Positions 111 to 63,010 of a stretch of 64,000 nt of DNA are shown here, in pieces. This stretch comes from Atherix ibis. Lineage: Eukaryota > Arthropoda > Insecta > Diptera > Athericidae. Below the pieces are notes generated by a model. The model worked only from the letters and a program-made list of their open reading frames with translations. It did no database searches and had not been told where the DNA came from. The stretch is taken from contig CATQJD010000001.1 in NCBI GenBank assembly GCA_958298945.1, positions 1,095,773 through 1,159,772 of the forward strand, written 5' to 3'. Position numbers and translations under genes: made by a program. Each line of letters starts with the position of its first letter. Positions within the stretch are counted from its first letter, which is position 1.

Positions 111-257
111 TCTGGCCATCCTTCAAATGTTGATACAGTAAATAATGTTAACATTGCTTTTCCAACGTCATCAAAGTGGAATCGACTATTTTTCCATTCA
201 CGTTCCTTTACAGTTGGATTCATAACATCGTCACCTTCAAACACTAAATATGTCCCC
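111..257 (-). CDS. Ca-alpha1D: Calcium channel alpha-1 exon: domain III pore loop
   Basis: Coding exon of 147 bp. It encodes the extracellular turret and pore helix of repeat III of a voltage-gated calcium channel alpha-1 subunit, a plasma-membrane ion channel. Visible motifs are GTYLVFEG, then [14 protein letters not shown]; the glutamate codon of STFEGWP is at 122-124 and is the repeat III member of the EEEE calcium selectivity filter. The TFEGWP form (F before E) is typical of L-type (Cav1) channels; Cav2 channels carry TGEGWP. The acceptor is CTATAG before base 257 and the donor is GTAAAA after base 111. One base at the 5' side completes the CAG codon begun in the preceding exon (1275-1327); two bases (GA) are left at the 3' end for an exon outside the window. 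Family certain; Ca-alpha1D orthology inferred from the L-type signature. Confidence 0.95.
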
Positions 258-1274: not shown

Positions 1275-1327
1275 TGGCAATCTTCTCTTCTCATTTTGGA
1301 TCCATCTGTGCATTTGAAGAATTTTCC
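1275..1327 (-). CDS. Ca-alpha1D: Calcium channel alpha-1 exon: start of IIIS5-pore extracellular loop
   Basis: Small exon of 53 bp encoding GKFFKCTDGSKMRREDC plus two bases of a glutamine codon. The peptide matches the stretch directly after S5 in repeat III of L-type channels (GK-F/L-ThisCysteine-T/S-D pattern), including the conserved loop cysteine. The acceptor is AAAATAG before 1327 and the donor is GTAAGT after 1275. It enters in phase 0, fitting either IIIS5 exon, which both end in a complete AAG codon. The two trailing bases CA join the G at 257 to give CAG. It is separated from the pore exon by a 1.0-kb intron carrying a MITE. Confidence 0.93.
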
Positions 1328-9433: not shown

Positions 9434-9541
9434 CTTAAAAAGCTGGACTCCAATCACGGCAAACATGAACTGTAGCAGATACGTAACCAACATAATGTTG
9501 CCGATCGTTTTGATCGCAACAATCACACATTTCACAACATA
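9434..9541 (-). CDS. Ca-alpha1D: Calcium channel alpha-1 alternative exon: IIIS5, copy B
   Basis: Exon of exactly 108 bp (36 codons), phase 0 at both ends, encoding a complete repeat III S5 membrane helix. Motifs are [19 protein letters not shown] and IGVQLFK. The acceptor TTTTTTTTCTAG lies before base 9541 and the donor GTAATT after 9434. Compared with the exon at 30116-30223 it differs at only five residues: 1 H to Y, 4 Q to K, 10 V to I, 17 V to M and 21 F to Y. By hand count about 28 of 108 bases differ, and most changes are silent. Including both copies would give two S5 helices in a row, so the two should be used alternatively. Copy A is closer to the vertebrate L-type sequence (HVVQC start), so B is probably the derived form. 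Use of B cannot be proven without transcript data. Confidence 0.9.
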
Positions 9542-12256
9542 CTAGAAAAAAAACATTACAAAATGCGGGCGAGAAACAGAAATTGTGTTCGATATTTTGT
9601 TCTTTTTTAATTTTTGATTAAAATTTAATATAAGTACAACATAAATATATATGTACATGGATACAATGTATGTATGGATGTACATAACCAAACATGCAAG
9701 AATAAATACTCAAAAATATAAAATATTTTCAAAAAAATTTTGTCTTTTATCTCTTTTATTTCGGAATTTTTTCCCACCATTCAAGTATCATTTTGATATG
9801 ATACAATTGGGGTTTATCTTAAACAAATGGAAAAAAGCACACCAAATGTGCAAGGAGAAAGAGAAATAATATCGTTTCCGTCTACGAAGAACTGAGTGGT
9901 ACAATTACATAAGACGTTACAACACTATTTGCAAAATTTAGAAAATTATGGACGCCAGTATTTCTCTGTCTCCCACATTTATTGACTGTATTTATTTTAC
10001 TGTTGGTTTAATTTTATTTTGTTGTTTTTTTTAATTTTCATATTTATTATTTTGTATTTTTTTATATTTTATTTCATTATAACTATTCTCCTTTATTATC
10101 ATTACTTTTCGAATTGATTATAACAGGATTTACGTCCACTTACCTTCAATTCGAAATATAATTAAATGGTTTTTGCTTGTTTTGCGTACACATATGGTTT
10201 TAGATAAGAGAATTTTTGATATACACATATTGCTTTGAATATGAAAAACCTTTGAGTAATTTTACATTATATTATTTTTTGACGGAAAAAATAAAAAAAA
10301 ATAAAATTGAAGCAACTTTTTTATAATCTATTTCATTATAATTGTTGTTAAATATAATTATTGTTTGTATTATAAATTTATTATAATTATTATTTCTTTT
10401 AGGAACCTATACTAATATTACTTCCATAATCAATAAATTTTTTAAGTTATATTGTATATAATGATCATTTTTTACAGTCTTTTCCTCAAATTTATTCGAA
10501 AATATTTTTTTTGTCATCTAATGCATGAAGGAAAAAGCATTAACAATTTATTCCAAAATTAAACAAAAACTGGAAAGATTTTGTTTTGTTACATTATTTG
10601 AATTAAGCGGATATGCGCGTGAGTAAATAATTTTTTTAATTATTGGTATTGTCATCGGTGATTCATTATAATTAAATATTTTTATGATTATAATTATAAT
10701 TATTATTTATATTATTATTATTATTATTTTCAATTTTGTTTAACTTACCATAACTTTAACATTATATGTTTATATTTAAGTAAATTTTTAATCATATGGG
10801 TAAATTTCATTTTTCTTAGTAATTAAACGCTCACTAAGAATATCAAAAGCTTTTTTAAATAAAATTTGAACAGCATTTGTATTTTTATAAGCGAATATTG
10901 TATAATTTTTTGTATATGCGCGTTAATTTGAAACCAGTTTAACTTTATTTCAAGTAATTTTCTATTTATCAGATCTACGAAAAATTGATCTAATATTCCA
11001 TTTAGCATATTTAACAATTAACTGATTAGTTTTCATTTTAACTTATATTTAAAAAAAATTTTAAATATTAAAAAGAAAATTGTGTATTTTATGAGCTTAT
11101 ATCTATATTATGGCAGGTTTAAATGTGTTTAATTGATAGCCTTAGCAAACATAAAAAACCCGAAAGCAATTTTTGAAGTTGAAATAAGGCTTAATATATA
11201 CTTCACAGTTAAAAATTTAACATTTTGGTATTTGTAATAATCAGTTCTAAAGATATTAATTTTAAAATTGAAGTTTTACATTTTTCAAAAAAATTTTGAT
11301 TAATTTAAATACAGTAAATCTTTACAAATTGTTTTAAGTTTTCCGCTAAGATTCTTGGATTAGTCTTACGGTTTTTGTGTGACTGTTAATCGATTGAATG
11401 TTGTTAATTTATTATATTAAAGGAAATATTCAAAACCATGCACTTTTTATGATATACATTCTTATGTCAGAAACTATGTAGTAATACGTCAATTTTCATT
11501 TCCAAGCACTTCTATAAATATTAATTTATATTATTTTACATATATTGCTCTGGTATTGTATATCAATATTATGAAATATACTGCATAAACGAACTTTTGA
11601 ATTCTGAGAGCAAATACTTGTAAACTTCAGTTAGTACATGAAGGCGGCAGAAAGATTGCTTCCGAGAAAAATGGTGAAGAATTAGAAAAATCATAAGAAA
11701 ATATTGTTTAGTTACAATAATTAATATGTTCGTGTAAAACAATGTTTGCAATCGATTTAACAATGGAACATGGCTATAGTAGAACTAAATGCAACCAAAT
11801 TTCGGCGGAATTCGATCGGTACGGTCCGTGTTGTGAATGGACATTGAGAGTTTAATGTTTTGTGTTCGATAGAGTGAATTAATTCATATAGTTTAATTTG
11901 TACAAAGTACATTTTAATGAAGTGGAAAAAACTCCTTTCCATACGCATTCCTTCGCTCCATGCACATTCCTTCGCTGATTATAATTTGCCTCGCTACTTC
12001 TTGCACTATACCGTAGTGCAGTAGTAGACAGTCGGAAAAACATCGAATATATAGCGGTCTATGACTAGGAATTTATCTTAGGTTTTACCACATTTAGTGT
12101 TCGAGTTTGCGCAGAAATAGCTGTTCTATTTGTTTGCTATTTTATTGTGCAATTATTTAACTCTTATCTCTATTTGTATGTATATATGTACGACTATTAG
12201 TTTTTTAATTAACATTATTATTGCTATTATTACTTTTGTTATGTATTTAAATTTTG
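9542..12256. other. Intron, no gene seen
   Basis: AT-rich channel intron between the IIIS5 exon B and upstream debris. Long T and A runs give several spurious frames. Around 11580-12080 the composition is more balanced and includes a repeated phrase (CATTCCTTCGCT at about 11945 and 11967), perhaps an unidentified element relic. No coding region is supported. Confidence 0.45.
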
Positions 12257-12500
12257 TTATTGTGGTGAATAAATTCCGAGTTGACGTATGTAACATTCGT
12301 GGTTTAAGAAGGCATCACATCGCTGCGTGCGTTTATAATTCTCAAAGCAAACCAGCCATGTTGGCACTGAGTGAAACTCAGATAGACAAGAATTATAACT
12401 TTTCAGATTTGAGCTTACCACTATTTTTTCCTTACCGAGGCCTCGCCATTTACATCCGCAATAATGTATCCTATAAAATTTTACCACAACCCAGAATTTA
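12257..12500 (+). pseudogene. Non-LTR retrotransposon endonuclease relic
   Basis: The frame reads VDVCNIRGLRRHHIAACV, PAMLALSETQIDKN and later RGLAIYIRNNVSY. This is the start of an apurinic-type endonuclease domain as found in non-LTR elements: an N-I-R-G-L start, an L-x-E-T-Q catalytic glutamate motif and a G-x-A-I/L-Y-x-R block. The rest of the domain and the reverse transcriptase are missing. It is probably the truncated remains of an RTE- or Jockey-like element. Confidence 0.6.
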
Positions 12501-12509
12501 ATTGGATAT

Positions 12510-14570
12510 AAATCAAGTATAATGTCCGAGTGAATGAATAGTAGCTTTACCAAAAATGAGTTAAATGCATTATCCGATGCTATTGCAAGAATTGTATTCC
12601 ATTACAGGCGCACAAAAATTGTATATCTGATAAGCCGAGCTGTTGAAATTAATCAAGTGAATACCCACAGAACTGAAAATTCCTATACGTTGAAATTTAT
12701 CCGCAATATTAGAAAAATTAGCAAGTGGTACTGATAAGCTCCTTGCTTTATGTTATGTTAGTAATAGCAATGAACCAGTTATGGAATACCATTAAAAGTA
12801 TAACACCTAAAATATAATTATGCAATATACATTGCATACATACAGACTCGAGTGGGTTAATTTTTATTTGCTTTTTTTCCAAGTAAATAAAAATCTACCA
12901 TCTACTTAGGCTTATAATTAAAATGAAATTTACTTTACAAATTAATGAAGTGCTTGTTTAAAATCAAGTACTGCCCCAAACATATTGTTGAATCCTTTAA
13001 TAAATTATAGATTCTTCTAATCCATTATATTTTTTTAATTTTATTTATTTAGTGAAGTAAACATTTTAGTGTTGTAAGTCTATTTAAATTTTTAGCATGG
13101 AATCTATTGGTCAGAAATTGTAGTTCCTTTATTCTATTATTTAAAATATAGAGATAAAAGGAAAGGTAAAACTATCAAAAAGGCGAGACATATTTGTAAC
13201 ACTTCCACAGGCTACCTTTTATTCTGAGTATATAAAGAAATAATGATTATATATATTGTAATAATTATTAATTAATATTTTAATCATTAATTAATTATTA
13301 TAATTACTAATAAAGATATATTGTAGTATCAGCATATTGTTTCTTTTTTCTTAACTGCTTTGGTCTTAACCGCTACTTCGTTAATCGAAATACTTTGTTT
13401 CATGTATTAATATACAGAATTAATGCAAAGATATTGCAATTCTGTCCGAATCATTTAAAGAATTACAAAAGGTGAACCGAATATAGGTATCATTCGCCCG
13501 CGCAACTATATGGATATGTGCTTAGAATCATATTCAAGATACATCGGGAGTCTTCTACATATAAAGCGTATTTTCACTATCCATATAATTCCATTGAAGA
13601 TCAAAAAGTGTCGCAAGACACTGATAATAGCAGGCATCTTCAATGGGTAGTCTACAGAATGAAGTAACCGTAAACATAATTGACAAGGCATGATTTTGCT
13701 GGATGCTTTTGCTTTACTAGATATTCTTTTACCGAACACAGGTAACAAGCCAACTTTTAGTAGATAGAACATTTATTAGTGAGTGTTTTCCCGGCAGGGT
13801 AAAGTCATGGGAGGTTGGCGACTTATATACTTATATTGACCATAACGCTTTCGTATTTTAAGATGATGAAATGCAGCAAATATCAAAACAGTCGCTTGAT
13901 ACAAGTGAACTATGAAATCTTTTCAAAGAGAAACTTTTAAGGCGGTTATGTTTAAGCTTAAAACTTGCATACATTTCGCGAACAGAGTAACAATTGGTCG
14001 TTTCTCATATCAGTTGGTAAAAATATCAGACATATTCCTAACTGTTAATCAAGACGATATGCCTCCGTCACTAATGCTTCCGACACTACTAAAAGTCTAC
14101 CACGAAATTGAGGATGTTAAAGCCTCAGTACTGCATTACATAGTATATTTTTTAGAAGTTATTGTACATGCACTTAATTGTAACGCGACATCAGCAATTG
14201 TGAATCACAATGTTCTGGATGTTGCCTGGTTCCATGTTTATAATATGTAAAATATAAATTCTCCTGATTAATACCGAACTATCAACTATTTATTTTATAT
14301 ATTTCTATAGATAATTTGTAATAAATCATAATTATTTAGTCAATTATCAAAAGACTTTAATTTTTACTTGATCAACTTACGGGGTCTAATGAATAGCTTG
14401 AAATCAAGAGAATTTTATGGTCCAACAATTTTTTTTAATATAAATAATTTGTAAGGTATTTTGTAAGTACGTTGTATAAATTTGTATATAAAACACAAAA
14501 TTCAGTGTAGAATGCTGCTTTTTATAATTAGAATTAGAACACGACCAGAGAACTCTTTAGAAATATATAA
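12510..14570. other. Intron, unrecognised sequence
   Basis: Mostly AT-rich. Around 13440-14250 the composition is closer to coding DNA, with an open frame on the plus strand at 13912-14250 (112 residues) and one on the minus strand at 13506-13772 (88 residues). Neither has a motif I recognise, and both lie inside a region full of element remains. They may be relics of an unidentified transposon. Confidence 0.35.
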
Positions 14571-14571
14571 T

Positions 14572-15168
14572 TACATATACCTCTATATATTACATTGGCG
14601 TGCGGCATAAAAGAGGAATACGAGAAGAGGAAGCAGAATATACCAGCAAAATGAACCGGGAGAGCTCATTGAATTTTCTTTCCAACAAAAAGTAATTGAA
14701 AACAATGTTTACCAATTCCTCAATCGAAGAAAAATAAGTAAGGATAAATAACCGATAAGTTGAATGCAGCATGAGTGAGTGAATGATATGCAAAAAACAA
14801 ATTGCATGTGAGTAAGGGCTTTTTTTTTGGGAAATGATTTATTATAAACAAATGTATGTGGTATATGTGGTCTTCTTTTCAAAATACACGAGGAAACAAA
14901 ATACGAAAATTACAAAAAATGAAACAATAAAAATTGAATAGAACTAAATTAAATTGAACAGGTAAACGGTTTCCGAAATGCGTTATATTTATAAAGATTG
15001 CGACCATACTATTAATCATATAATAAGATAAATCGAAAATAAAAGTAAGACTTTTAATTATATCAAATAAGGGACTGACAAGAAAATTACAAATGCGGTT
15101 GATTACGAACAGCAACGAACATTAAGAGAATATCAAATGCAATTGCACCAATTACGCAAAATTAATCC
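14572..15168 (+). repeat. Direct repeat copy 1 (retroelement fragment, about 600 bp)
   Basis: This stretch is repeated in the same orientation at 24649-25236. Shared landmarks are TTGGCGTGCGGCAT near the start (resembling an LTR end plus primer-binding site), GAATGCAGCATGAGTGAGTG, and an ending frame TNAVDYEQQRTLREYQMQL. A shorter third copy of its latter part is at about 19540-19620. The most likely source is the 5' leader and first codons of an LTR retrotransposon, but the family is not recognised. Confidence 0.65.
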
Positions 15169-16928
15169 AAAATACTACGAATAGTTACTGTTGACAAATT
15201 TGCTGAGTATCGATGCTACTTGCATACAGATGGCTCTAAAAGTCTTAATCAATGTTAACAGGAGTTTAGACTATTGCTCCAAAATTCGTAATATTTTCTT
15301 CCATTTGAGCAATTTTGTAAGTATCGGTTAACAATACCATTAATTTGAGAATATAAAATCAGAATCAATTTGTGATTCTTTGCTTTTATTTCATCAAGCA
15401 TGTTACGTTGACCGGAGGAAAAATTTATAATAATTTGGCCGGTACTTAATCCTATTCGTACAGTTGCCGTATAGTATTTTACCCAGTCGTACGACCAATT
15501 AGTTTATTTACGCCATCAGTGCGTTTACTTTCCGTAGACGGCTAAAATTTTCCAAAATCTCATATTTGCGATCTTGACATATACGTTATTTGATACAAAA
15601 AAATTCTGAATAGCATAGATACGGTTTTCAAACTTTTCACAAGCTATCAGTTGGTGTGCAACCCGAGATTGGAAATTACGCTATACATACATACGACTTC
15701 ATATGAATATAAAATAACTTTTTACGTACCGTATACAACCGTATATGTAGACAGCTAATTATAACATCGGTGCGATTCAAGTTATCCGAATTACCAACGT
15801 TGTAATAAGTTGATTATTTAATTTTCACCTTCGATTTCAACTATTATCAACGAAATCCCTTACCCAAGAACACCAATAGTTTAGATCCGGTCGATCATTT
15901 CTACATCTAAAACTGAACCTACGCTTTATATACTTGTTCCTTTACACAGTTTTATCACATTGTAAAGGAAAGTGTTACTTTACAACAAGTCGAATAAGCC
16001 GATGCCTGCAGCGGGCCTACTGATTCGCGTTGTTAATTCTTCGGTTTGAAGAATATAATCTTCATAGATGTCTGTCAATCATTGGAGCTTACTATCATAG
16101 CAAGACGTCGGCATACCTTGACATCTGATATCTAACCGTAAATTATCTAAAGAAAGTTCCGCCCCGGATCCTTGAAAACGAATACACTGTGAGTAATGGA
16201 GAAACTCATAGCCGAACAGGAGCCTATTGATATGCATTTTAATAAGGTATTAAGCCGTTTAAGACGCGAAACTAGTTTAATATTATTCACTGCTAGCCTC
16301 AAGGATAAAGTTCGCGAATACAATTATTATATATAGAAATAATGGCTCGCCTAGCAGATACCAACGTATAACTAAGAAGATAGGATCACAAATCGGATGG
16401 ATGAGAATTCTAACGCATTTACTTGCTGAAAAAATCGGTTGTTCGAGTCCTACAAAAATTAAATCGTATTGCAGAGTTAGAATATCTAATCTGGAGAGAC
16501 ACTGGTATACATCTATCAGCCATGGCAAAATTATCAGTGGGCGATTTCACATTGATTATCAGCATGAACAATTTTACGATCCAGAGCTTAAATACCAGCA
16601 CGTTATGAGTAACTTAGAGGACTACATAATTACTCAGCATCATAGCCAAGTGTCATAATTTCCGAACGTCTTCATTAGGCCGCCAAGCATTTCTATGGCA
16701 AGGGTTGATGGAAATAACCAATTTGATAATAGTTACTAACCCATCCAAACTTCCGATCGGCAACTTTTTCTACTAGTATAGCATCACCACTTTCAAGTGG
16801 TGTAAATTACCAGCCCACTTCAACTTCCATGCTTGAAGACTGTCCAATCTATCACGGGTTTCACCTGATAGTTAACTGTAATAGACTAATAAGAAAGTCA
16901 ATAAGTGACAGAATATCTTATGTCAAAG

Positions 16929-17177
16929 GCTTAAAGTTATGTTATAACTTTTATGGAAGCTGATCATCAATCATCTGCTTGCACCTCTAGATTGTGCTAT
17001 TATTGCAAAGAAGAACACCACACTCTGCTTTATTTAAGGGAACTTAATAGTGGTACAACCTCTAAGCAATCAACGTCGTATTCCGATGTCCCGTTGAAAA
17101 TGAATCGGGATCCTCATCCTCAGTTTCAACCATACATTATCCATAGGACTACCAGTGTACCGACCAAGAGCAATTGA
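16929..17177 (+). pseudogene. BEL-like gag zinc-knuckle fragment
   Basis: An open frame of 74 residues contains CTSRLCYYCKEEHHTLLYL, matching the C-x2-C ... HHTLL knuckle of BEL/Pao gag proteins. Upstream in other frames is RIAYVKGLKLCYN, normally the first half of the same knuckle region, so at least one frameshift has occurred. Confidence 0.55.
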
Positions 17178-17541
17178 GATGAACTAGAGCAAGGTCGAGC
17201 ATTGTTGGACTCTGAACCGTCAATTAGCAAATCAACATTTCGGACGTTATGAACCGTCAATTATAGACGTTATAATTAGCAATCAACATTTCGGACGCTA
17301 ACATAGAAGATGTTCCTACCACTGCCCCTTGTGCCCACCAATAAAATCTGAATCACAATATACAAGCGATACAACAACAAACTACATCGAAGGAAAAATG
17401 TATGCCATACATACAAGACCCTCGCAGACGTCTGTTTAAATCATATAAATCAGATTCTTCAGCTATAGGTCTCACTCATTTTGATACACTGCGAACAAAG
17501 GTGTGTTTTAAGAAAGATGAAATGTTAAAGGTCGGATACGA

Positions 17542-17914
17542 AATGTTAATACGGCCGAATATTATCTAGTTTGCCTAACATAACAGAATCTTCGTACCAT
17601 CATAGCAATAGTCATACCAATTGACCAAGCTATCAAGAAAGAAAATGTTTTTCAAAATGACAGCATATTAATAAAAAAACTCCACAAAAAGGAGATTTAC
17701 CTTTGAATAATGATAATGTCCCCACATAAGAACTTTTTACTAAAAAATGTTAATACGGCCGAATATTATCTAGTTTGCCTAACATAACAGAATTGACCAA
17801 GCTATCAAGAAAGAAAATGTTTTTCAAAATGACAGCATATTAACAAAAAAACTCCACAAAAAGGAGATTTACCTTTGAATAATGATAATGTCCCCACATA
17901 AGAACTTTTTACTA
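17542..17914. repeat. Tandem duplication, about 200 bp, inside the BEL-like relic
   Basis: A unit starting AATGTTAATACGGCCGAATA at 17542 and ending with TTCTTACTA-like sequence near 17742 is repeated at 17745-17914. The second copy lacks an internal block of about 36 bp (the TCTTCGTACCATCATAGC section) and otherwise has one or two differences. It is a recent local duplication. Confidence 0.85.
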
Positions 17915-18725
17915 ATCCAAAATTAGGACAATTTTAAAGAATTATGCCTGTACCAATACGGTCCCGACAAGATTTAAAAAAAAACACTAACATACCAACA
18001 ATTTAACAAGAATAAGACGCAGATTATGTCCAAGCTTCAATGATTACCGGTTTAAATTGGTCACTCATGTACAAGCACCTGAAGAGACAAGGTCCGTCTC
18101 ACCTAAATCATTACGCTTTTTATGGAAGATGGTGGGGAAATCAAACTATTGCGCAGCTGCTCGAAAATCGTCTTATCAATAAAGGAATATTCAGCATTCT
18201 GGGAATCATCAGTATCATCACCTACTACTTCAATGCACCCGCTACGCAACCTCAGCATCAGGCAGACCAGACATCGTCAACTCCAATAGTTTGAAACAAT
18301 AATACGAACCACCAGATGTAATAATAGGAATCACTTATGTAAAGTAAAATACTTAAACATAAGATTAAATAATTTGAAAAAAAATTGTAATGAGAAAAAA
18401 TAAAATTAATTACAACAAATGTTCAAATAAAAACCATAAAATGTAAGAAAATAAATAAATATTGAAATATGTAAATAAATATATATTAAAAAGAGTAAAG
18501 AATATATTAAAAAGAATAACTCGGTTTATACACAGTGTCAGGGAAATATTACGACTGATTACTGAAGTTTTACCATAGTTACATTAATCTGTAACGGTGG
18601 CGGAGAATGTTGACCCATTTGTTCGATGCCGACGCTATTTGCGATGGTACTGTATTCAGTAAGTTCATCTGTGCATAGAATAATACCTAATCAATATTAT
18701 TTTCCGCCCCTGCGGATGGATGATA

Positions 18726-18776
18726 AGTATATAATTGCTTCTCATCTTTGAAGAAATAGAGAAGCAATTATATACT
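18726..18776. repeat. Snap-back palindrome
   Basis: AGTATATAATTGCTTCTC at 18726-18743 is perfectly inverted at 18759-18776 around a 15-base spacer. It is inside the second terminal repeat of the BEL-like relic and absent from the first copy. Confidence 0.85.
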
Positions 18777-19576
18777 CTTGTTAGTTATAATAGAAAGGTG
18801 AATTATAGCTAACAAGGGGCAAAATTAAATTCGTGACAACTCATATAAGAAATTCAAGTAATGGTACAAATAATCACGCAACTCAACTCAAGGTCCGACC
18901 CAATAATTGATCCATAGTCAGACCCTAGCTGTGGATTAGCTAAAAAAGCTTGTCTTCGAAAGGAGAGGAGGGTATGGCCAATTGGCTAAGGCATCTCCCA
19001 TTCAAGCAAGCATGAAGTAGCATGCACACAAATAATCAATATTAATAGGAATTTAGACTATTATTTTAACAGTCGTAACATTTCCTTTATTTTAAGCAAT
19101 TTTGTAAGTAGCGGTTAACAATACCGTTAATTTTAGACCATAAAACCAGAATCAATTTGTAATTCATTACTTATATTTCCTCAAGCATTTAACAGGTAAG
19201 GAGCTCGAACTAGTTCTAGTCTAGTTCAGTAAAAATAAAAACATAAGTTCGGACAGTATTGTCGAATTCCCTTAAAATAAACAAAACAAGACTGATACTT
19301 AGTTGTTAGTTTATACATTGGGCTCGGTTAATATCCGGTTCAATTGATAACAATAATTTAGTCTAACTAACACATCATTAGAATTAATTACTTGGGCCAT
19401 AATACAAACAACATTTAAAACAATAAATTTTATATAGTCAGATAAAAGAGCGCCTTTCAATACAACTCTTCCCAATCCCAGTTCCTAAAGTAAAATAAAA
19501 TAATTCTACGCAACAGTTGCGATGGATTAAGATATAAGATTTAGTTAATTTATAAAGATTGCAACCATATTATTAA

Positions 19577-19710
19577 AAAATAATAAAATCAATCCAAAAT
19601 AAAAGTAAAACTTTTAATATTGTTTGACATTATTAAAAGTTTGACATTATTTAATATTGTTTGACATTATTAAAAGTTTTACTTTTATTTTGGATTTATT
19701 TTATTATTTT
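19577..19710. repeat. Snap-back palindrome, 42-bp arms
   Basis: The arm at 19577-19618 contains CCAAAATAAAAGTAAAACTT. It is inverted at 19669-19710 with one mismatch, around 50 bases that hold a short TTTGACATTATT repeat. The left arm belongs to the third copy of the 14.6/24.6-kb repeat, so the inversion arose inside that element. Confidence 0.85.
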
Positions 19711-20128
19711 GTACAAAGCATTTAATAATAAAATTAATGAAATGATGAGAAAGGCAAATACCAATCCGTTACGCACATTACTATACAGGCCGCTAATTAA
19801 AATAATGGAGATGGATCAAATGATCGAAATTATAAAGGAGTATTCGACTCCATAAGAGGGACATAATGGTATAAAGAGATGCATTCCTAAAGTAAAGCAA
19901 CATTATGTCTAGAAAAATATGAACAAAATGGTTAAGCAATACATCATATGTTAATTGCAAAAATTGTTAAAAAGATAAAGTTGTAAAATACATTAAAGAA
20001 CTTTTAATAATAACGGAAATTTCTAACTGTAGCTTTATTTTATCAATAGATACAGTGGGACTACCAAGACTATCGCAGGGATATAGATATATTCTGTAAG
20101 CTTACGAAGCATCCTCGATGGCATCAAA

Positions 20129-20193
20129 AGGAATAGGAAAAGTAAAACGATTACAAAAAAAAAAATTGTAATCGTTTTACTTTTCCTATTCCT
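20129..20193. repeat. Snap-back palindrome, 28-bp arms
   Basis: AGGAATAGGAAAAGTAAAAC starts the arm at 20129-20156. Its perfect inverse is at 20166-20193 around a 9-base A-rich loop. The right arm abuts the end of the Gypsy pol relic. Confidence 0.87.
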
Positions 20194-20204
20194 CAAACAG
20201 ATGT

Positions 20205-22440
20205 ACATTTACATGTGTATGACTACTTTGAATACCTTATCAGTTTTACGTCGGGTTATATTTTTTTTGGCAAATTTTGCTTCTATGGCTTTCATTCCAT
20301 GTGAAAGAAAATTTATGTTTTTTGGAATGAGTTTTTCGAGTTCTGTATATCCAACCATCTTTATTCGTGATAGTGCATCAGCATTGACATTTAATTTTCC
20401 TTGTTTATAAACTATCTCGAAGTCATAGTCTATTAGGTCTGATCTTGTTCGAGTTAGTTTGGATCAGGGGTTTTTATGACTAAACACACTTACGAGCGTG
20501 ATTTATGACTAAACACACTTACGAACGGTGATCTGTTACTATGGTAAATCTTGTCTCATAAGGATATGGCCTAACGTAATTTATACCCTAGTGGATACCG
20601 AGTAGTTAATTCTCAATAACTGCTTTTTTAAATTAATATATGTTTCAGGTTCTACTTGCGTAGGCTATTGGCTTCTTTCCAAATTTCATCTTGTGACAAA
20701 ACTGCACCCAATACATAATCTGAGGCAACTGTACTAATTATAAACGTTTTGTTAAAATTGGGGTATTGCAGTAGAGGTGGACTTATTAACATCTTTTTTA
20801 ACGTGTTGAGGGACTTTGAGCATTCAGTAGTGCAATTAAGGAGTACATTCTTCTTTGTTAGGGCATTTAGAGCTTTTGCAATATCAGCAAATCAGGGGAT
20901 AAAACGTCTATGGTAGTTACAGAACGCCACGAATCTTTTAATTTAATCAATGCTTTTTGGTATTGGATAATTACTGAAAATCTTGTTTTTGTTGGGATAT
21001 GTTTTATTCCAATTTCAGTTATCAATTGTCCAAGAAATAATACTTGTGATCTTAGGAAATTGCATTTGTCGGTTTTATTTTGAGATTGTATTCTCTTAAC
21101 TTAACGAAAACCTTTTTCAAGTTGCCATTATGACTCTTGAGATCCTTGCCAAAAACTATGATATTATGGACATAGATGAATGCGCAAGAGTCTAAACCCG
21201 CTAATGCTCTTGATAGCATACACTGAGGGGTGTTCGTCGATATTTTCAGACTAAAACGTCGTCTTTTGAATTGATAGTGCCCCCAATTGTTGAAAATGCT
21301 ATGAGGGATCTCGACAATTTATTAAGCTCTATCTGGTGGAAGCATCTCGTCATGTCGACAGTCGAAAAGAACTTAGTTCCTTCAAACATATCCAATACGT
21401 CCTCGAGACGCCGCGTAAGTGGGAACTTATAATTTGCAATCTTCTTGTTTAGCTGTCTATAATCTACTAGTCTCCAATCGTTGCTCCACCCCGAGTTATT
21501 TTTTGGAACAATAAGTAAGAGAGAGTTAAATGGCCTTATAGATGGTTATATATTATTCCCTCTTCCATAAGTTTCTGTACTTGTTCATTTAGTTCGTCAA
21601 TATGACTATGTCTATCATTTATATAAACTGATATTTATAAAATTTATTGGTAGAGTGTTGTTCACCCGGTAGGTGAAATATATCTTGATATTTCCCACAT
21701 ATACTCTTCATGTACTCCCGATCTTTTGCTTTTGACAGGTGTAACTCACCGAAAAGCGTGTATAATCTACTTGCTTTTCTTGTTATATTTGTATATAAAA
21801 TATTGTTTTTTATTGCAGGTGAGTTATCTATATCGCCCCTCATTTGTATTACAATAACTTGAACATCCCAGTTTATCTCTAGGGTGAATGTTTCATATTT
21901 AATCTTTGCGAAATATTTTACTGGGAAATCTCTTCCTAATATGCCATCTATGAATATTTGCAGGTTATAGTTCATTATTGCTGTAGCCTCATGTAATAGA
22001 TTTATATTTAACGCGCGCTATGTATAAATGTTTGTTTCGTGATTACCGATATTGTACATATTTGTGTTTTATTTCCCGTTATATTTTACGTCCTTAGTTT
22101 AAATTCTTTTGCCTATTGTTGCTTCCTTTATTGTAATTGGTATTATTTTTATTATTATATCTTTTATTATATTGATGTATTTATTATTGTGCCCCTTATT
22201 ATATTTATATATTGTTATTATTACTATTCCCATTTATATATATATTGCTATTTTTATTGCAATACCCATTGTTATATCTATTGTTGTTATTAATACTATG
22301 CCCATTGTTATATCTATTGTTATTATTGCTATCATATTTATCAAATTATTTCTGGGAGTGTTGAAGTTGTTATTGGCTTCAAATTCTTTGGTTCTTATCA
22401 TTTTGGTATTTATTTCAGAATTACTATTATAAGTACAGCG
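20205..22440 (-). pseudogene. Gypsy-type LTR retrotransposon pol relic (gag end, protease, RT, RNase H)
   Basis: Read on the minus strand the region has, in order, these parts. An asparagine-rich gag tail (22100-22350). A frame with ILGRDFPVKYFAKI and DIFHLPGEQ (21619-21975), the protease-to-RT linker of Gypsy elements. RT fragments RLVDYRQLNKKIANYKFPL and KFFSTVDM (about 21400-21470). An RNase H end with TRTRSDLIDYDFEIVYKQGK and NVNADALSRI (about 20370-20450). Many stops and frame changes separate these parts and the integrase is missing. It is oriented opposite to the neighbouring BEL-like relic. Confidence 0.78.
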
Positions 22441-24648
22441 ACCACTTTCATCAATGAACTGCAGTATTTTGTTTGTTATCAGATTGAACTTAAAATGTAT
22501 TTTATCTATTTATTGTTTGTTGAGCAACTTAATGTAGCTCGATTAATTTTTTTAAAAATACTCTGCTAAGAGATTTACCTACTCGGATGTTTAGTAAATG
22601 AATTTTTTAATTTTTGGAAATTCAAAAATACTTCTTCTAATTTATCCCTACTAATAATTAAATATTTAGTTTTTCTAAATTTGAAAATACTTCTTCCAAT
22701 TTAAATACACAAATTATGTGCTTAAGCCTCACTGATGTCAGCCAGGCTGCGAGTTACATTTTTTTTCTAAAGATTTGTTTATACATCTTTTTAATAAAAA
22801 TAAAGCAGCAATCCATAAGGCAAACAGTATTATTAAGGTAATTACGGTTATCAAATGGAAAAATGGCTCCTCTGATGTTCTATTAATAGTATTATTACCT
22901 CCCGCCTGACTTAACATTATTCTCCTTTAGAGCTTTAACTTCCCATTTTATAGTTTTGTTAATTATATACACTTTTGTACTAATTTATATTTTTATATAT
23001 TTATGTGTACAAGTTTCTTATTTTTATTCATTATAATTTTATTTCGACTTATTTCATATATATTTTAAGCGTTAATTATTTTGTAAGGTTTTTTTAATTT
23101 GTCAGATAGAAGTTCTTTTATGATAAGGGTCTTCCGTTAAATTTATGTTAACTTTAGAATTTGTTTGGTAATACTTAAATTAAATTTAAGTGTAACTGTG
23201 AACGAGCCTGGCTCGGCGAAGAACTATTTTCTCCTACATGGTTCGTGGATTTGTTAATGGATTGCATGAAGGTGGATTGATCTGGCTGTCGTCCATGTGG
23301 GTTAACCTGGCTGTCGTCCGAATTGATAGGTTGAGAGTAGGTTGTGGAATATGGTTGCTTCTTCTTCTCTTATTGATCGTCTTCTTACATCAATTGACCC
23401 GTAATTTGACAGTAGTAAGAGTAGGCTGCTGGATATGGTTGCTTCTTTTCAGCTCGGTTGGATATAATCGTAATGTAGTGTTTTATTTTATTAGTTTTCA
23501 TTTATATATTTCTTTTTTTTGTTAGTTATTTTTATATTAAATATAATGTTTGGTTTAATTTAGTTTCGAAGGCTCATGGGAATATGACACTTCCAAGATA
23601 AACATTCAGCAGTGTTAACTGGCCAACTGCTATAAGATTTAGTGGGCCATGAAAATAATATTATTTCCTTCTGAACATTAGGACGCCTGAACTGGCCAAT
23701 GAGAATAAAATAGAAGTGAACTTTAGTAGTATCTTGATAAATTGATTCTGATTTACTTACAATATTCTTAGCCTATTTATATAAAATTAATTACATGCAT
23801 TATGCGTTTTCGCTTATTTATTTTTTGTGATAATTGTTTACTTATTCGCCTCAAATTTTTATTCAGTTCCCCAAAAAGAATATGTTCCACATTTTTGGGG
23901 TGGCTCAAACACTGGTTTGAGCAACCCCTCCGAACATCCGTTTATTCTTCCTAGCCCAATACTTCGGAGAGGCTGAATCAATCCATCCTAGCTAGGACAC
24001 GAGCTTATTTACATGATGATCATGGAGAGTGAGATGCTCATTTGAGTTAAGTCGCATGCTCATTAAGGAACTCTAAGCACCAGACCATTGGTTTTACATC
24101 TTACTAAGCCTTACTTGGGAGCCACATGGTCACTCATGGATCCTTCTATGAATTGATTGACAAATTGAAACAGTTTGGAGATAAAATCGTAGTGACACAG
24201 TCAGACAGAATATGTATCATACACAGGGAAATACAAAAAACTTAACACGGGCGCTGGATCAGGGTACCGGACCATATAACCTAAGAGTCAAATCCGTAAA
24301 CTTTACAGTTGGACAAGAGGGTTATCGTTGTAACATTCAGCAGAGTTCGTTTTCAATAAAATGTTGAGGAAAGTTGAGCCAAAAATTCCTGATTGCATCA
24401 TAAACTTTCAAGTAGGATTCGTCATTTTTTTTATAGACAAATATTTCTTTAATAAATGAAGACTATGCAAATTATATATTTAACAATCTAATCACATAAA
24501 GAATAAAATAGAAATATTGATTAAACAAATTAATGAAATAAAAATTGAATTTTGGCATAATATCATCAAAATAGTAATAAACACTTCAAAAACCATAGAA
24601 ACTAAATAAAACAAAGAAAAAACAACAATATTGGTAATGGTATGCTTA
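22441..24648. other. Retroelement debris, unassigned
   Basis: Mixed AT-rich and more balanced sequence between the Gypsy pol relic and the second copy of the 600-bp repeat. A short repeated phrase CTGGCTGTCGTCC occurs at about 23283 and 23308, and AGAGTAGG with TGGNATATGGTTGCTTCTT at about 23333 and 23417. CATTCAGCAG occurs at 23604 and 24336. An open frame at 23238-23525 is hydrophobic and repeat-derived. Nothing is assignable to a family. Confidence 0.4.
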
Positions 24649-25236
24649 TATATACCTATATATAGTACGTTGGCGTGCGGCATATAAGAGAAACACGAGG
24701 AGGGGAAGCAAAATATACCAGCAAAATGAACTTGAAGAACTCATCAAATATATTTTTTCAAACAAGAAAGTAAATGAAAACAATGTTAACCAATTCCGCA
24801 ACCGAAGAAAAATAAGTTAGGATAAATGACCGATAAGTTGAATGCAGCATGAGTGAGTGAATGATATGCAAAAAACGAATTGCATGTGAGTAAGGACAAT
24901 TTTTTGGGAAATGATTTATTATAAATAAATGTATGTAGTATATGTGGTATTCTTTATAAAAGGAAAAGTAGAAAAAGAAAAGTAAAAATAATTAAACATT
25001 AGTAAATGAACAGAACTAGATCAAATGAAAAGGTAAACGGTTTCCCAAATGCGATAAACTTATAAAGATTGCGACCATACTATTAATCAAATAATAAAAT
25101 AAATCCAAAATAAAAGTAAAACTTTTAATTATATCAAATAAGGGACTGACAAAAAAATTACAAACGCGGTTGATTACGAACAGCGACGAATATTAAGAGA
25201 ATATCAAATGCAATTGCACCAATTACGCAAAATTAA
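24649..25236 (+). repeat. Direct repeat copy 2 (retroelement fragment, about 590 bp)
   Basis: Second copy of the sequence at 14572-15168, same orientation, with scattered substitutions and small indels. It includes TTGGCGTGCGGCATA near the start, the GCATGAGTGAGTGAATG phrase and the final MQLHQLRKIN frame. After 25236 the two copies diverge completely, as they do before about 24649. Confidence 0.65.
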
Positions 25237-25624
25237 TCTCTCAGAATATTCGCCACTAGGTGCACGTATGCACTCTGTAAATTATAAATTATCCCATGAA
25301 AGTGTACGAAGATTCATTGTGTGGCTAGCGCGGTATCTACATGGTTGGTCCTACATATGCATTACAAGTACGTGTGAAAGTTTGTGTGTATTTATTAATA
25401 TTTATTTACTATTGAGTGCATTCTTATGTGATTAAAAATGTTTTGCTACTTTGCCAATGCTTACCGTTAAGATAAATACTGTAAAAATTAAAGAAAAAAA
25501 GATACATTGTGATCACACTCAAATAAACTCGTTTAACCTAAAAACGGTTTTAACATTTTTATATAATGTACATGTAAGTAAAATATTAAACAGCAAGAAA
25601 TAGTTTTTTTTCCAAACTATTAAT

Positions 25625-25994
25625 AGGCGAATTCGATTGGACTAATTTTGCTACAGCGCAGTACTGACCAGTAGACTCTCAATAAAATGAACATATCACT
25701 GACAGCAGTAAAATACAACCTCACAATAGTCACCAACAATACTGAGTTTATGCACACATAAACAATAAAAACTAAGTTTACGCACACATAAACAACAAAA
25801 ACAAAAATATGACGCTTCAACATAACCAACAAACCCGCTAAGCCATCTATAGTTAGTTCGGAAACTACAATCCCCTTACCCTAAGGGCAGAAATGCAACT
25901 CCTGCTACAATTTTACTGTTTTGTTAGAGGTACTGTAGATTATGACAGCTACACAACAGTAGTTGTAGCAAAATTAGTCCAATCGAATTCGCCT
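25625..25994. mobile_element. Harbinger-type MITE, 370 bp
   Basis: Terminal inverted repeats of about 30 bp: AGGCGAATTCGATTGGACTA and on to TTGCTACA at the left, the exact inverse at the right. The core GGACTAATTTTGCTA resembles the TIR core of the neighbouring Harbinger transposon (GGACCAATTTTGCTA). An internal stretch near 25790-25840 (CTTCAACATAACCAAC) also recurs, inverted, near 26265-26285 inside that transposon. It has no coding capacity and is probably an internally deleted relative. No clear 3-bp duplication was found. Confidence 0.82.
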
Positions 25995-26099
25995 GATATA
26001 AACCATATATATTGCTAATTTTCTGTTAGATACATTGTTTTTTTGTTCTTTATTTCATATATCATATATTTTAAATGAAAAAAATTCTCTAGAAACATA

Positions 26100-27434
26100 A
26101 GGCGTTTTTCTTTGGACCAATTTTGCTAGTCCGGAGTAGTTGTAGCTGTCATCATCTAGTCCACCTCGAACGAACGACCACTTCGAACGGTGAGTTACGC
26201 ATACAATTAACTGTAGGGGGATTCTAGTTGCTAAAGTGAAAATAGATAGTTTTGCGGGTTCGTTGGTTATGTTGAAGTGTCATATTTTTGTTATGTTTAC
26301 TTTATTCGTGCAGCAAAATCGAAGAGAAATGGAGTCAAATATTAATCGAGTGCGTTTTTACCTAAAAAATAACTGAAAATTTATTAACTGCCCGCTTTAC
26401 AGGTTATTATGGAATTGTTTCACGTTCTGGGAGGTAGGGATGATTTACTTTTATGTGATTCTTCAGAGTGAAGCGAGACATGATTCTTCAGAGTCAAGCG
26501 AGACACCAGATTCTGATGATGATGAGCCCCCATGCATGAAGAGAACTAGTGTTGAAAATTATACATATATAATTGTGAAGTACGCAGATGGTGAATTTAA
26601 GAAACACTTCAGATTGACAAGAGTTGTCGCAGAGACGGTTATCGGTATGTGCTTTTCATTTTAAACAATAATTTAAGGAATAAGTGTTGTAAATATCGCA
26701 CTCTTTTAGGTGAATACAGTATGTTTTTAAACCGTCCAAGGCGTGGAGCACGTGCTGCAGTTGGTGCTGGTGTTGAAATATACATAACGTTATTTCATAT
26801 AACAGAAAGCTCTGTCCATCGAATTTTATACCGCGTCGTGAAATGGCTTGTCGAAGTGAGTCCCAAGTACATAAAATGGCCAACAGCATCCGAAATGCAA
26901 AATAACCAGAACCAATTCGCAGCTATGAAAGGTGTGCCAGATGTTGTTGGGGCTATTGATGGTTCCCATATTAAAGTCAATCCTCCTAAACGTGTCAAAC
27001 AAGCATACTACAATAGGAAAAAAATTTGTAGTGCGCTTTTGCAGGGAATTGTAAACGCCGAGAAAAAATTTATAGATGTGTACTGTGGTGAACCTGGTTC
27101 ATCAGAACTAATGCTTTTGTGTGAATTCATATTTATTATTATAATAAACGCCTCCTCGGCTTACAAAAACGAAAGTATTTTTTTTATTATATTTATAAAA
27201 TATGTTAAGGCAATTTATTCAACGTTTATATTAAATAATTTCCGTACAAAGTTTAAATTAAATAATTTGAACGTTGTCCGGAACACACCCACGCTACTTC
27301 ACGTTGACAAGTACAAGAAGTATTGTCAGATTGTTGCTGACTGTTTTGAGGTTATGGTTTACTAGAGTTTAGAATTTGGCTTTCCTTTGCTCATCTACTC
27401 CGGACTAGCAAAATTGGTCCAAAGGAAAACGCCT
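26100..27434 (+). mobile_element. PIF/Harbinger DNA transposon, 1.33 kb
   Basis: Inverted termini start AGGCGTTTTTCTTTGGACCA and include TTTTGCTAGTCCGGAGTAG; about 40 bp match in inverse at 27395-27434 with one mismatch. The 3-bp target duplication ATA is present at 26097-26099 and 27435-27437, as usual for this superfamily. It carries one damaged transposase gene on the plus strand. Confidence 0.92.
26409..27364 (+). pseudogene. Harbinger transposase, defective, with a 65-bp intron
   Basis: Exon 1 ends in LTRVVAETVI and exon 2 continues GEYSMFLNRPRRGARA after a consensus intron at 26645-26709 (GTATGT donor, TTTTAG acceptor); removing it keeps the frame. Next come SSVHRILYRVVKWLVE (DNA-binding end), VPDVVGAIDGSHIKV with the first catalytic aspartate, YYNRKKICSALLQG and FIDVYCGEPGSS with the second. 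After GEPGSS the family resemblance stops, and the third acidic residue and C-terminus are missing. A short stretch seems deleted between ARAAVGAG and the ESSVHR block. A small in-frame duplication of the SSE region is present near 26450-26510. Confidence 0.85.
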
Positions 27435-27589
27435 ATAATAAATAGATATGTATGTGTATGTACGTGTATATAAATGAATTATAAGCGAGAGCTTAAAATG
27501 CATATATATTTAGACTTATTTTAGATATTTTCTTATATTTCAATTTTTATATTCAAATAATTCAAATCCATTATGAAAATGGTTGATCT

Positions 27590-28095
27590 GTGAAAGCTGG
27601 TTTTTAAGAAAAAATCATCCTCGTGAACGAAGCTCATTTTTACTTCGACTTCTCTGCTAACTAGCAAAATTCTTCAAAGATCAGTTATTGGAAAACCATT
27701 ATATTTATCACGTGCAACTGTATGGTGCGATTTACAAGCTGGACCATTGGTCTGTATTTTTTCGAAAATGAGGTTGGTGCTACAGATACTTTCAATAGAG
27801 TGCGCTAAAGAGATATGGTAACTAATTTTGTATGCCCTATTTATGATGTATGGATGTCGATTACTTGTGGTTTCAACAGGACGTCGTTATCTTATAAGGT
27901 GGCTAAGAAACAATCGATTTATTGAAAACCAAATTCAATGGTGGGAGGCCATGGGAAAGATGACGTTTATGAGAATAGTCTATACACAATTCAAGTGCTC
28001 AAAACAAATATCATGGTGGAACTTAGCCTAAATTTATTTCTTTATTCATGAATAGTAATGTCTCTACATCATAGTGCAATAAAAAATGACGGAAT
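27590..28095 (+). pseudogene. Tc1/mariner-like transposase fossil
   Basis: Across frames the plus strand reads EAHFYFDFSAN, LYFFENEVGATDTFNRVR and RDMVTNFV. These recall the E-A-H-F ... V-N-K-Q-N block and the FFENE-G-x-x-x-T-V-N-x-x-R-Y motif of insect Tc1-like transposases. Stops and frame changes are numerous. No termini were found. Confidence 0.6.
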
Positions 28096-28559
28096 TCAAC
28101 AAATTAAAAAAAAAAGTAGGTCCTGTATATAGATTTATTTATACTTCTAAAAATGATATGAAACCAAAAATATGAGTACATGCAATATATGGCTCATTTC
28201 TAAGAGAAATGATTATTCAAACCACTTCTCTGCATAATTTTTGAAAAGACCAGAGAGGGAAGAAGGGTGCTTATAATTCTTTTTGGTGACTTTGTTCTAT
28301 CTTTTACATGGTAATAACTCACTTGCTTTAAGCTATTGCAAAATATCCGTGCTTATAAAACGTATCGTAAAATTTGAAAAAGTAAGACAATTTTAAAATC
28401 ATTTATTATGCAACTATAGCTGTAGACTAAAGTAAAATTTATGGTACACATTTAGCTTAATTCTTCAATAAAGAATCAAGTAGTTGTGATATTTAGAAAT
28501 ATCTATTCTGGGCAGCAAATTACCAAAAAAAGTAAAGAAATTCTTTAAAAAAATGAGCA

Positions 28560-29195
28560 AGATCGGCATATCAGCAGTTAAGACATATCTTATAAATTAA
28601 ACAGTAATTTTGAAATTGTTTTTAACCATTTGCGAAATGCTGAATTTACAAAAAAAGTCGATGTTTGGATGACTTATGAATTAATAATGTTTAAACAGTT
28701 GCGATATGCTGCTGAAGCGCAATCAAATAGAGCCATTTCTGAAGCGAATCATAACTGGCGATGGAAAAGGGGTAAATATAAGAATATCATACGATTGAGA
28801 TCATGGAAAAAGAAAGACCAATAGCGTTAGGATGTACGTATAATGAGACTGGAACGGAATCGTTCATTATGAACTGCTACCGTTTGGTGAAACTATTAAC
28901 TCGGTACTGTACTGTAACCAACTCAAGAGATTACGTCCATGTCTATTGAGAGAGATTACCTGGGAAGTTTTGATGCATTCACCGTATAGCCCAGTCATAG
29001 CAACCTCCGACTACCACTTATTTCGATCACTGCAGAACTCTCTTAATGAAACCATGGTGACTTCAAGAGAGGTCTGTAAAAAAAACACTTGATTCAGTTT
29101 TTCAGCTAGAAACCACAGAAGCTCTAGAATCATGGCCCTCTCTGAAAAATTGCAAAACATTCTCGATAATAATGAAGAATATTTCGTTTGAAAAA
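28560..29195 (+). pseudogene. Mauritiana-type mariner transposase fossil
   Basis: Segments on the plus strand include IVHYELLPFGETINS, then WEVLMHSPYSPVIATSDYHLF and SLQNSLNETMVTSREV. The order and spacing match the central and C-terminal parts of mariner transposases of the mauritiana type, whose last catalytic block is YSPDLAPSDYHLF; the first aspartate of that block is valine here. The N-terminal part is unrecognisable and several stops are present, so this is an old copy unrelated to the mariner at 5.6 kb. Confidence 0.68.
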
Positions 29196-30115
29196 TTTAT
29201 TTTAACACTCTGATTTAAGCGTCTCTATTTAACTGAAAAACTTTTTCGACATACCAATATTTAAGTTAACAAATTCGCTCTTCACTTATATTTTTTGTAT
29301 GTAAATTTTAATTTCGCATTTTACATTGTAAGTTAATTTAGGTTATGAAAGAAGTAGTTGATTTAATAAAGCAATAGTAAAACACTCAACATTATACTTA
29401 TACGAATAGCGAATCATAACTTGTATGACTATACGACTGAGGCTTTGAAAGCGTAAGTACAAAATAATGGTTTGTATATAAATGGACATTTTTTCGTTGT
29501 GTGCCTTTATTTGCCATCTCCAAGACCTTTACTATTCACAAAAAACTAGTTTCAATCAATGCGCTGTAATCAATGGAATAATTTAATAACTGATTTCCAA
29601 TGTAAATCTAAAGCACTATAATAAATAGAAGAAAAGCAATCTGATTAAAAAAACAAATAGATATACGACTTAATATTATTATAATTTTAAAATTAATTTG
29701 TGTTTTTATAAATATTCTCGAAAATAAGTTATTATATAAAAGAAAAATATTTCAAACATAAAATGTAAACAAATGTAAAAACTTAAATAAAAAAACAACA
29801 CAAAAATTCAATCCATTTTTTTTGTTTCAATTATTTTACTTTTTCAAAGTGGTGAAAGATTTAAATCCGAGGACGAAAATATTTCTTAATTTAAGGATTG
29901 GTATGCACCACAAACATAATTTTTTTTCATCTCTCCAATAAACAAATTAAAAAATGCCAAAATAATAATGAAAAATAACAGAATATATACAATAAAAAAA
30001 TTTAAACAAAAGTAAAACCAAAAAAAAAAAATTGAAAAAAAACCTTTCACTATAATAAATTAAGTGTAAAAAAGCCTCTGTTTGCCGGTTTGTTTTTTCA
30101 TAACCGAATTCCTAC
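29196..30115. other. Intron, no gene seen
   Basis: Very AT-rich sequence immediately downstream (in gene direction) of IIIS5 exon A. Long A runs are present. No motif or coding region is supported. Confidence 0.55.
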
Positions 30116-30223
30116 CTTAAATAATTGGACTCCTATAACCGCAAACATGAATTGCAGTAGAAATGTAACAAGAACAATATTGCCGATAGTCTTAACTGCG
30201 ACTATAACACACTGCACTACATG
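30116..30223 (-). CDS. Ca-alpha1D: Calcium channel alpha-1 alternative exon: IIIS5, copy A (canonical)
   Basis: Exon of 108 bp, phase 0 in and out, beginning [17 protein letters not shown] and ending IGVQLFK. It encodes the S4-S5 linker end and the S5 helix of repeat III, and matches the canonical L-type sequence at these positions. The acceptor ATAATTCATAG precedes base 30223 and the donor GTAGGA follows 30116. It joins upstream to the IIIS4 exon, which ends in the complete codon series for AKGLK, and downstream to the GKFFKCTD exon. The second copy of the same length and phase lies 20.6 kb downstream at 9434-9541. The two form a candidate mutually exclusive pair. Confidence 0.94.
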
Positions 30224-35467: not shown

Positions 35468-35555
35468 CTTCAATCCTTTTGCACGATTAATTGCCCTCAA
35501 AGGTCTCAAGACACGTAGCACACGGAGAATTTTTACGAACTGTATGGCTGCCGAA
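35468..35555 (-). CDS. Ca-alpha1D: Calcium channel alpha-1 exon: IIIS4 voltage sensor
   Basis: Exon of 88 bp. It encodes the S4 voltage-sensing helix of repeat [19 protein letters not shown] followed by [13 protein letters not shown]. Positively charged residues recur every third position (K, R, R, R, R), as expected for gating charges. The acceptor AAATAAACAG precedes base 35555 and the donor GTAATA follows 35468. The first base (T) completes the AG left by the IIIS2-S3 exon to give a serine; the exon ends in phase 0. The upstream intron is 20.6 kb and contains the R1 elements and the GATA array. Confidence 0.95.
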
Positions 35556-56154: not shown

Positions 56155-56321
56155 CTGAGGAATATCGAAATGAGTGACACACAAACGACTAGTAAATCGA
56201 GTAAATTGAATGCCGATCGACAAAATGATCCTTTGTGTAGCACAAAACCATAGGATATTAATTTCAATAATAATTCAATTGTAAATATCGTGGTAAAAAA
56301 GTAATCAAAATAGGAGAGAAC
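56155..56321 (-). CDS. Ca-alpha1D: Calcium channel alpha-1 exon: IIIS2 and IIIS3
   Basis: Exon of 167 bp encoding the S2 and S3 helices of repeat III. Visible motifs are [37 protein letters not shown] and [16 protein letters not shown]. The acidic residues of the charge-transfer centre (E in FTIE, D in NLLDLL) are present. The acceptor is TTTCAG before 56321 and the donor GTAATT after 56155. It enters in phase 0, matching the ENK end of the IIIS1 exon, and leaves two bases (AG) that pair with the first base of the IIIS4 exon. No duplicate of this exon was seen. Confidence 0.95.
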
Positions 56322-59564: not shown

Positions 59565-59694
59565 CTTATTTTCGGGTGCATTTGCTTTAAGTGGATTTTC
59601 GGCAGCCAACATAGCTGACGAAAACATAATGCATAAAAGCATAATATTGCCAAAATATGAATGATTACAAAACCAATGGCAAAATACACGAACT
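59565..59694 (-). CDS. Ca-alpha1D: Calcium channel alpha-1 exon: IIIS1
   Basis: Exon of 130 bp encoding 43 full codons after one split base. The peptide begins [16 protein letters not shown] and continues with the S1 helix motif [15 protein letters not shown], typical of repeat III S1 in L-type channels. The acceptor is AAATTCTAG before 59694 and the donor is the near-consensus AAG/GTACGT after 59565. The first base (A) must complete a codon begun in the II-III linker exon; AG plus A would give the arginine expected in the conserved TNR motif. The exon is intact. The intron to the next exon (56155-56321) is 3.2 kb and contains no recognised element. Confidence 0.94.
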
Positions 59695-62893: not shown

Positions 62894-63010
62894 CTATTTG
62901 TTGGTTAAAATATAAAAAAGGATGACGCTGGCGGTATTGGCACGGTTTTTGTTGGCTGTTTATTTAATTCAGATACACGTCGAGGACATGCTGTACCAAT
63001 TCCTGTTTTC
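62894..63010 (-). pseudogene. Ca-alpha1D: II-III linker exon of the calcium channel with in-frame stop and no GT donor
   Basis: On the minus strand this stretch reads GTACPRRVSELNKQPTKT, then PIPPASSFFIF, a TAA stop at 62905-62907, then PTNR. The P-x-P-x-x-S/A-FF-I/L-F-S-x-T-N-R motif is the conserved end of the II-III linker just before IIIS1 in L-type channels. The serine expected after FFIF is the stop codon here. After AATAG the sequence continues GGCTTT rather than a GT donor. Upstream lies a good pyrimidine tract followed by AG near 63003-63010. Similarity that continues past the stop argues for recent decay, an unusual truncating isoform or an assembly error. If decayed, the working copy should lie beyond 64000. 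The 5' boundary is approximate. Confidence 0.6.

Follow-up and report, generated by a model that had tools for sequence, protein, structure and literature searches.

Exons A and B of a Cav1 gene

The window analyzed here is a 64,000-nt stretch of the Atherix ibis genome (contig CATQJD010000001.1, positions 1,095,773 to 1,159,772), whose minus strand carries part of a gene that, judged by sequence similarity, is the alpha1 subunit of an L-type calcium channel (Cav1) and the orthologue of Drosophila Ca-alpha1D. Two exons of this gene, here called A and B, each encode the fifth transmembrane segment (S5) of domain III (IIIS5).

30116..30223, minus strand: exon A, IIIS5 of the H/Q type (a type shared with non-arthropods), 36 codons, phase 0/0
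9434..9541, minus strand: exon B, IIIS5 of the Y/K type, 36 codons, phase 0/0

Both exons are 108 nt long and have an AG acceptor and a GT donor (exon A, acceptor ...ATTCATAG and donor AAG|GTAGGA; exon B, acceptor ...TTTTCTAG and donor AAG|GTAATT); they are spaced 20,574 nt apart. Homologous, equal in length and phase, bordered by GT-AG and neighbors in one gene, they have the attributes by which tandem-duplicated exons are recognized. The computed comparison gave 28 base differences and five residue differences (H1Y, Q4K, V10I, V17M, F21Y), exactly the numbers that a first-pass annotation of the sequence had reached by hand. That annotation's description of two 108-bp, phase-0 IIIS5 exons with good splice sites also stood, given the GT-AG borders and 0/0 phases. 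Its assignment of the helix to IIIS5 was correct and the term "pore-lining" was not, as S6 is the pore-lining helix and S5 the outer helix of the pore domain.

Both A and B are under strong purifying selection at the protein level. Between the two, 20.5 of 25.3 synonymous sites were changed (~81%) versus 7.5 of 82.7 nonsynonymous sites (~9%; Fisher p = 3.5e-11), a comparison that the first-pass annotation had asked for and that agrees with its view that selection has kept both copies. Synonymous divergence was at or near saturation, and codon position 3 held 21 of the 28 changes. When 28 random substitutions were simulated in 20,000 trials, at least 10 residue changes always resulted and a stop codon arose in 52%. 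The strong match between the two copies (E 5e-18) covered 114 nt, that is, the exon plus 3 nt on either side, and the remaining matches between their 1.5-kb flanks were short, at 13-40 nt, with E no better than 0.008. A search of the 670-Mb assembly, in which seven candidates were scored, returned two matches at E <= 0.001, namely A (8.4e-15) and B (8.4e-13); no third S5 copy was found genome-wide at this threshold or in the window at E up to 10.

Distribution of the two exon types in relatives

Related proteins were gathered in three protein searches, of which the first two started from B-type sequences and the third from a B-bearing mollusc channel, and each list comprised the best 120 of >6,500 matches. 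Clustering at 90% identity, by which isoforms were merged, gave 215 distinct representative proteins, and taxon groups were assigned to these from their names. The 36-residue S5 was typed as A when it had H1 and Q4 and as B when it had Y1 and K4. Because of the merging and of the restriction to the best 120 matches per list, the counts that follow are not frequencies. A alone was present in 82 representatives, B alone in 64, A followed by B in 62 (61 with the two directly abutting) and other arrangements in seven; A preceded B in 62/62 models holding both, which is the order seen in Atherix ibis. By group, the hexapods (n = 135) comprised 61 with A then B, 56 with B, 16 with A and two others; the chelicerates (n = 20) seven with B, 11 with A and two others; the myriapods (n = 2) one with both and one with B; and the unnamed proteins (n = 8) seven with A and one other.

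A B-type S5 is therefore annotated in many insects, in two myriapods, and in spiders and scorpions, and both types are conserved in related species. The first-pass annotation had named the presence of B in relatives as a check on its own proposal, and B was indeed present in hexapods, myriapods and chelicerates, an occurrence which indicates that the duplication is ancient. All 33 of the listed named non-arthropods (nematode, acoel, nemerteans, molluscs, amphioxus, frogs) were of A type and none had B. With B-type seeds, the third of them on a mollusc channel, a mollusc B should have ranked high, and none did among the listed matches. Among 127 B segments, M17, Y21 and Q24 were each present in 126; among 149 A segments, position 21 was C in 55, S in 40, F in 37, T in 15, and N and L in one each. 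Two Psylliodes models, P0074 (B) and P0195 (A), are located on contigs listed with equal lengths; 1770 of their 1796 aligned residues agree, and the differences lie in S5 and in one further alternative region.

Gene identity and neighboring exons

Joined in silico, the IIIS4 exon, exon A and the exons at 1275-1327 and 111-257 matched Cav1.2 (2.8e-81), Cav1.3 (1.3e-79) and Cav1.1 (7.9e-79) far more strongly than Cav2.1 (1.1e-55, the best Cav2), Nav1.7 (5.4e-46) or Cav3.3 (1.7e-43), so that the earlier assignment to an L-type channel was upheld by the gap between Cav1.2 and the best Cav2. The threonine and glutamine that contact dihydropyridines (positions 20 and 24) are present in both A and B, and among the listed proteins the exons were most similar to those of Hermetia and Drosophila. 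On its minus strand, the window holds most of domain III in the order IIIS1, IIIS2-S3, IIIS4, A, B, 1275-1327 and 111-257. When 40 kb was added on each side, parts of the gene were found to span from about 90,400 down to -25,400 in window coordinates.

35468..35555, minus strand: upstream constant exon, with the IIIS4 voltage sensor and the beginning of the S4-S5 linker
1275..1327, minus strand: downstream constant exon, with the beginning of the IIIS5-P linker
111..257, minus strand: downstream constant exon, IIIS5-P linker and start of the P-loop (Pfam Ion_trans, 9e-07)
about 56155..56321, minus strand: IIIS2-S3 exon of the same gene, borders set by eye
about 59565..59694, minus strand: IIIS1 exon of the same gene, borders set by eye
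62893..63003, minus strand: decayed member of a second exon pair (II-III linker, ahead of IIIS1), its frame broken by a TAA and its donor GT replaced by GG
about 64522..64632, outside the window: intact partner of this second pair

The second alternative region, just ahead of IIIS1, was revealed by comparing near-identical isoform models. The defects of its copy at 62893-63003 (the stop codon and the lost donor) are seen in neither A nor B; an assembly error is a possible source of them.

Putative Drosophila counterpart and known exon switches

In Drosophila Ca-alpha1D, exons 15 and 16 are described as mutually exclusive, exon 21 as skipped and exon 20 as skippable on the evidence of an expressed sequence tag (PMC4174434; the exon numbers in its figure legend are lower by one than those in its text). 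A 2022 survey attributes two tandem exon-substitution events to the gene, with the helices left unnamed in the survey text (PMC9741552), and the available text of neither source names IIIS5. The order in Atherix ibis is the second pair with its two copies, IIIS1, IIIS2-3, S4, A and B; if the second pair is numbered 15/16, the five-exon spacing makes A and B exons 20 and 21, and the exon order thus fits a putative correspondence of A and B to Drosophila exons 20 and 21. By exon count, exons 15/16 match the pair in the II-III linker, and the idea that they themselves were the IIIS5 pair was rejected. Three Drosophila models (P0069, P0071 and P0075) carry a B-type S5, with none of the listed proteins named as D. 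melanogaster, and these models, together with the two tandem events in Ca-alpha1D, make it very probable that the pair is already annotated in Drosophila. The Atherix locus resembles Dmca1D in being the same gene by similarity, in its two duplicated exon pairs with five-exon spacing and in the B-type S5 of the Drosophila models; it differs in the 20.6 kb between A and B and in the decay of one exon of the second pair.

In vertebrates, CACNA1C and CACNA1D have mutually exclusive exons for IS6, IIIS2 and IVS3. These are likewise tandem homologous exons that swap a Cav1 transmembrane segment, but the segments are other than IIIS5. Ten independent exon-substitution events in human and fly calcium channels are reported to have all hit different exons (PMC9741552). 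In the insect Cav2 gene cacophony, mutually exclusive exons comprise a functionally tested IS4 pair (PMC11828482) and exons in the beta-subunit binding region (PMC9741552); there too homologous exon pairs diversify an insect calcium channel, in another gene and in other regions. Our literature search retrieved no text naming an insect IIIS5 exon switch. The first-pass annotation had considered that such a switch might be new, which did not hold, given the annotation of both types across hexapods, myriapods and chelicerates and the events listed in PMC9741552. The pair is old, annotated and apparently little studied, and is no discovery of this genome.

Position of the differing residues on the channel structure

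Alignment to solved channels placed exon position n at residue 1036+n of Cav1.2 and 915+n of Cav1.1. The published drug contacts T1056/T935 and Q1060/Q939 fall at n = 20 and 24, which confirms the mapping (PMC10981686, PMC10761187). In the structure of Cav1.2 with benidipine, I1046, I1049 and V1053 are described in a hydrophobic pocket (PMC10981686), and in that of Cav1.1 with nifedipine Val932 is in the drug pocket (PMC10761187). As I1046, I1049 and V1053/Val932 map to exon positions 10, 13 and 17, V10I and V17M fall within the dihydropyridine pocket. F21Y adjoins the contact threonine, and H1Y and Q4K are at the end of the S4-S5 linker. The functional remarks of the first-pass annotation overlooked V10I and V17M, the changes with structural support. 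Exon B was also considered as a natural copy of the known Thr-to-Tyr change that confers dihydropyridine resistance; this was rejected, as that threonine is position 20, which is the same in A and B, and the change is at position 21.

The differences predicted between the two channel forms comprise H1Y and Q4K at the S4-S5 linker and V10I, V17M and F21Y in helix S5, in part facing the III-IV fenestration, and a regulated choice between A and B could tune gating, dihydropyridine sensitivity or both. Whether the chief effect is instead on expression or voltage coupling through the linker, and not on pharmacology, we rate at somewhat below an even chance. Such an effect is suggested by the retention of T20 and Q24 in both Atherix exons and by the separation of the types by H/Q versus Y/K in 208 of 215 proteins, a count which is not independent, as the types were so defined; M17 and Y21, each found in 126 of 127 B segments, are on or beside the drug pocket and speak for the pharmacological effect. 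IIIS5 is one of the dihydropyridine-binding helices and links the domain-III voltage sensor to the pore, so a conserved pair of S5 exons offers natural variants with which to probe the role of this helix in gating and drug sensitivity. The pair could also account for pharmacological differences among the L-type currents of one arthropod.

Use of the two exons

Taken together, A and B are very probably ancient, tandem-duplicated alternative IIIS5 exons of Cav1, normally used one per transcript and giving two channel forms. Normally, one of the two would be joined between the IIIS4 exon and the exon at 1275-1327. Inclusion of both or of neither keeps the reading frame, as does inclusion of either one, and a separation of 20,574 nt excludes simple crowding as a means of enforcement, so self-enforced exclusivity is ruled out. 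Mutual exclusion as put forward in the first-pass annotation was accordingly not supported in that form, with neither frame nor distance enforcing it and with 62 of the 215 models holding both exons. Candidate mechanisms for the choice are splicing regulated by trans-acting factors and long-range RNA pairing, the latter suggested to operate near exons 20 and 31 in drosophilids (PMC4174434).

Several results weigh against alternative use of an ancient pair. All four exon combinations are in frame, and in 61 of the 62 two-S5 models A and B directly abut. Intron pairing gave no signal when 200-nt flanks were compared in 15 pairs, with a lowest z of -1.63 and 12 shuffles each, a test of low power. 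The 17 listed crustacean representatives were all A and none had B after merging of isoforms at 90% identity, for which loss and hidden isoforms are both candidate explanations, and the single listed springtail, damselfly and flea representatives were each A only. M17 was also present in 70 of 149 A segments, so V17M is no fixed contrast between the types, and the contrast of H1/Q4 with Y1/K4 is built into their definition. Any effect on drug binding may be small, since the two Atherix exons share T20 and Q24, and the Drosophila exons were matched by order alone.

The same freedom of frame would allow A and B to be optional cassettes. Transcripts with A and B in series would then be real and regulated, and might, for instance, yield a channel that has one membrane helix too many and is non-conducting or dominant-negative. 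The models with both exons include automated isoform models from several insect orders, and Drosophila exons 20 and 21 are called skippable and not mutually exclusive in the available text of PMC4174434. Two-S5 models may nevertheless be products of prediction chaining or of rare splicing, and ranking by summed score favors them, so that their count of 62 is inflated. An extra helix should also upset the topology of everything downstream, and 82 models with A only and 64 with B only exist; we regard optional use as unlikely. The many public models with two S5 segments in series would represent either a systematic annotation problem or a real product. Least probable, and by a wide measure improbable, is that this fly uses only one of the exons and retains the other as an intact-looking relic. 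The decay of the copy at 62893-63003, in the other duplicated exon of the gene, shows that loss of a duplicated copy does occur. Although synonymous change between them is close to saturation, both S5 copies, unlike that neighbor, retain their frame, their splice sites and the residues typical of their types, and 69 of the 215 representative proteins have a B segment that agrees with B of Atherix ibis at 36/36 residues.

Paralogues and unusual models

Two Cav1 paralogues are present in spiders, with 64-76% identity over the main alignments. In each of three pairs of representatives (P0121/P0133 of Oedothorax, P0104/P0134 of Uloborus, P0100/P0138 of Nephila), one is B and the other A, which suggests that the A and B forms of spiders are split between two genes; against this, the two Tachypleus representatives are both A. 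At position 24, chelicerate A types have Asn in 11/11 and B types Gln in 7/7, a contrast not demonstrated as a splice switch, since the compared A and B of spiders come from different genes. Crustacean A types have Glu at this position in 17/17. We advance only tentatively, and with some doubt, the wider proposal that the Cav1 switch is at least as old as the chelicerate/insect split and alters both the S4-S5 linker of domain III and the dihydropyridine fenestration, and hence gating and drug sensitivity, within one Cav1 gene, with the spider forms perhaps parted between paralogues and with A of the listed chelicerates having Asn where B has the drug-binding Gln.

In Anopheles (P0025/P0026, P0163/P0166), there are two Cav1-like genes, ~74% identical, one with an A/B pair; in the listed models of the other, S5 occurs once, is of A type and matches exon A of Atherix ibis in full. 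In the acoel Convolutriloba macropyga, model P0062 has two S5 segments in series, both with H/Q; the same exon may have been duplicated independently there, or the model may be an artefact. In Maniola jurtina, the A-type S5 of model P0067 precedes a Y/K-type S5 that has diverged and does not resemble the other B exons; as P0067 is only 67% identical to Maniola model P0112, it may represent a second gene.

Intron content

Pieces of reverse transcriptase and RNase H (20652-21545) and a weak match to a DDE transposase (26601-27365; E 2.3e-4, below the curated cut-off) lie between A and B; the intron that follows B contains a Mos1-like mariner (5785-6701). With such transposon pieces in the introns, the 20.6-kb distance between A and B plausibly reflects intron growth by transposons. 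An endonuclease and a reverse transcriptase at 38539-41128 belong to an element resembling those without long terminal repeats (non-LTR). Scans of the whole window with Rfam (gathering threshold) and ARAGORN gave no matches. In the intron between IIIS4 and A, direct repeats spaced ~1.24 kb apart occur at 32214-34695, one of 300 nt with 100% identity and one of 196 nt with 99%.

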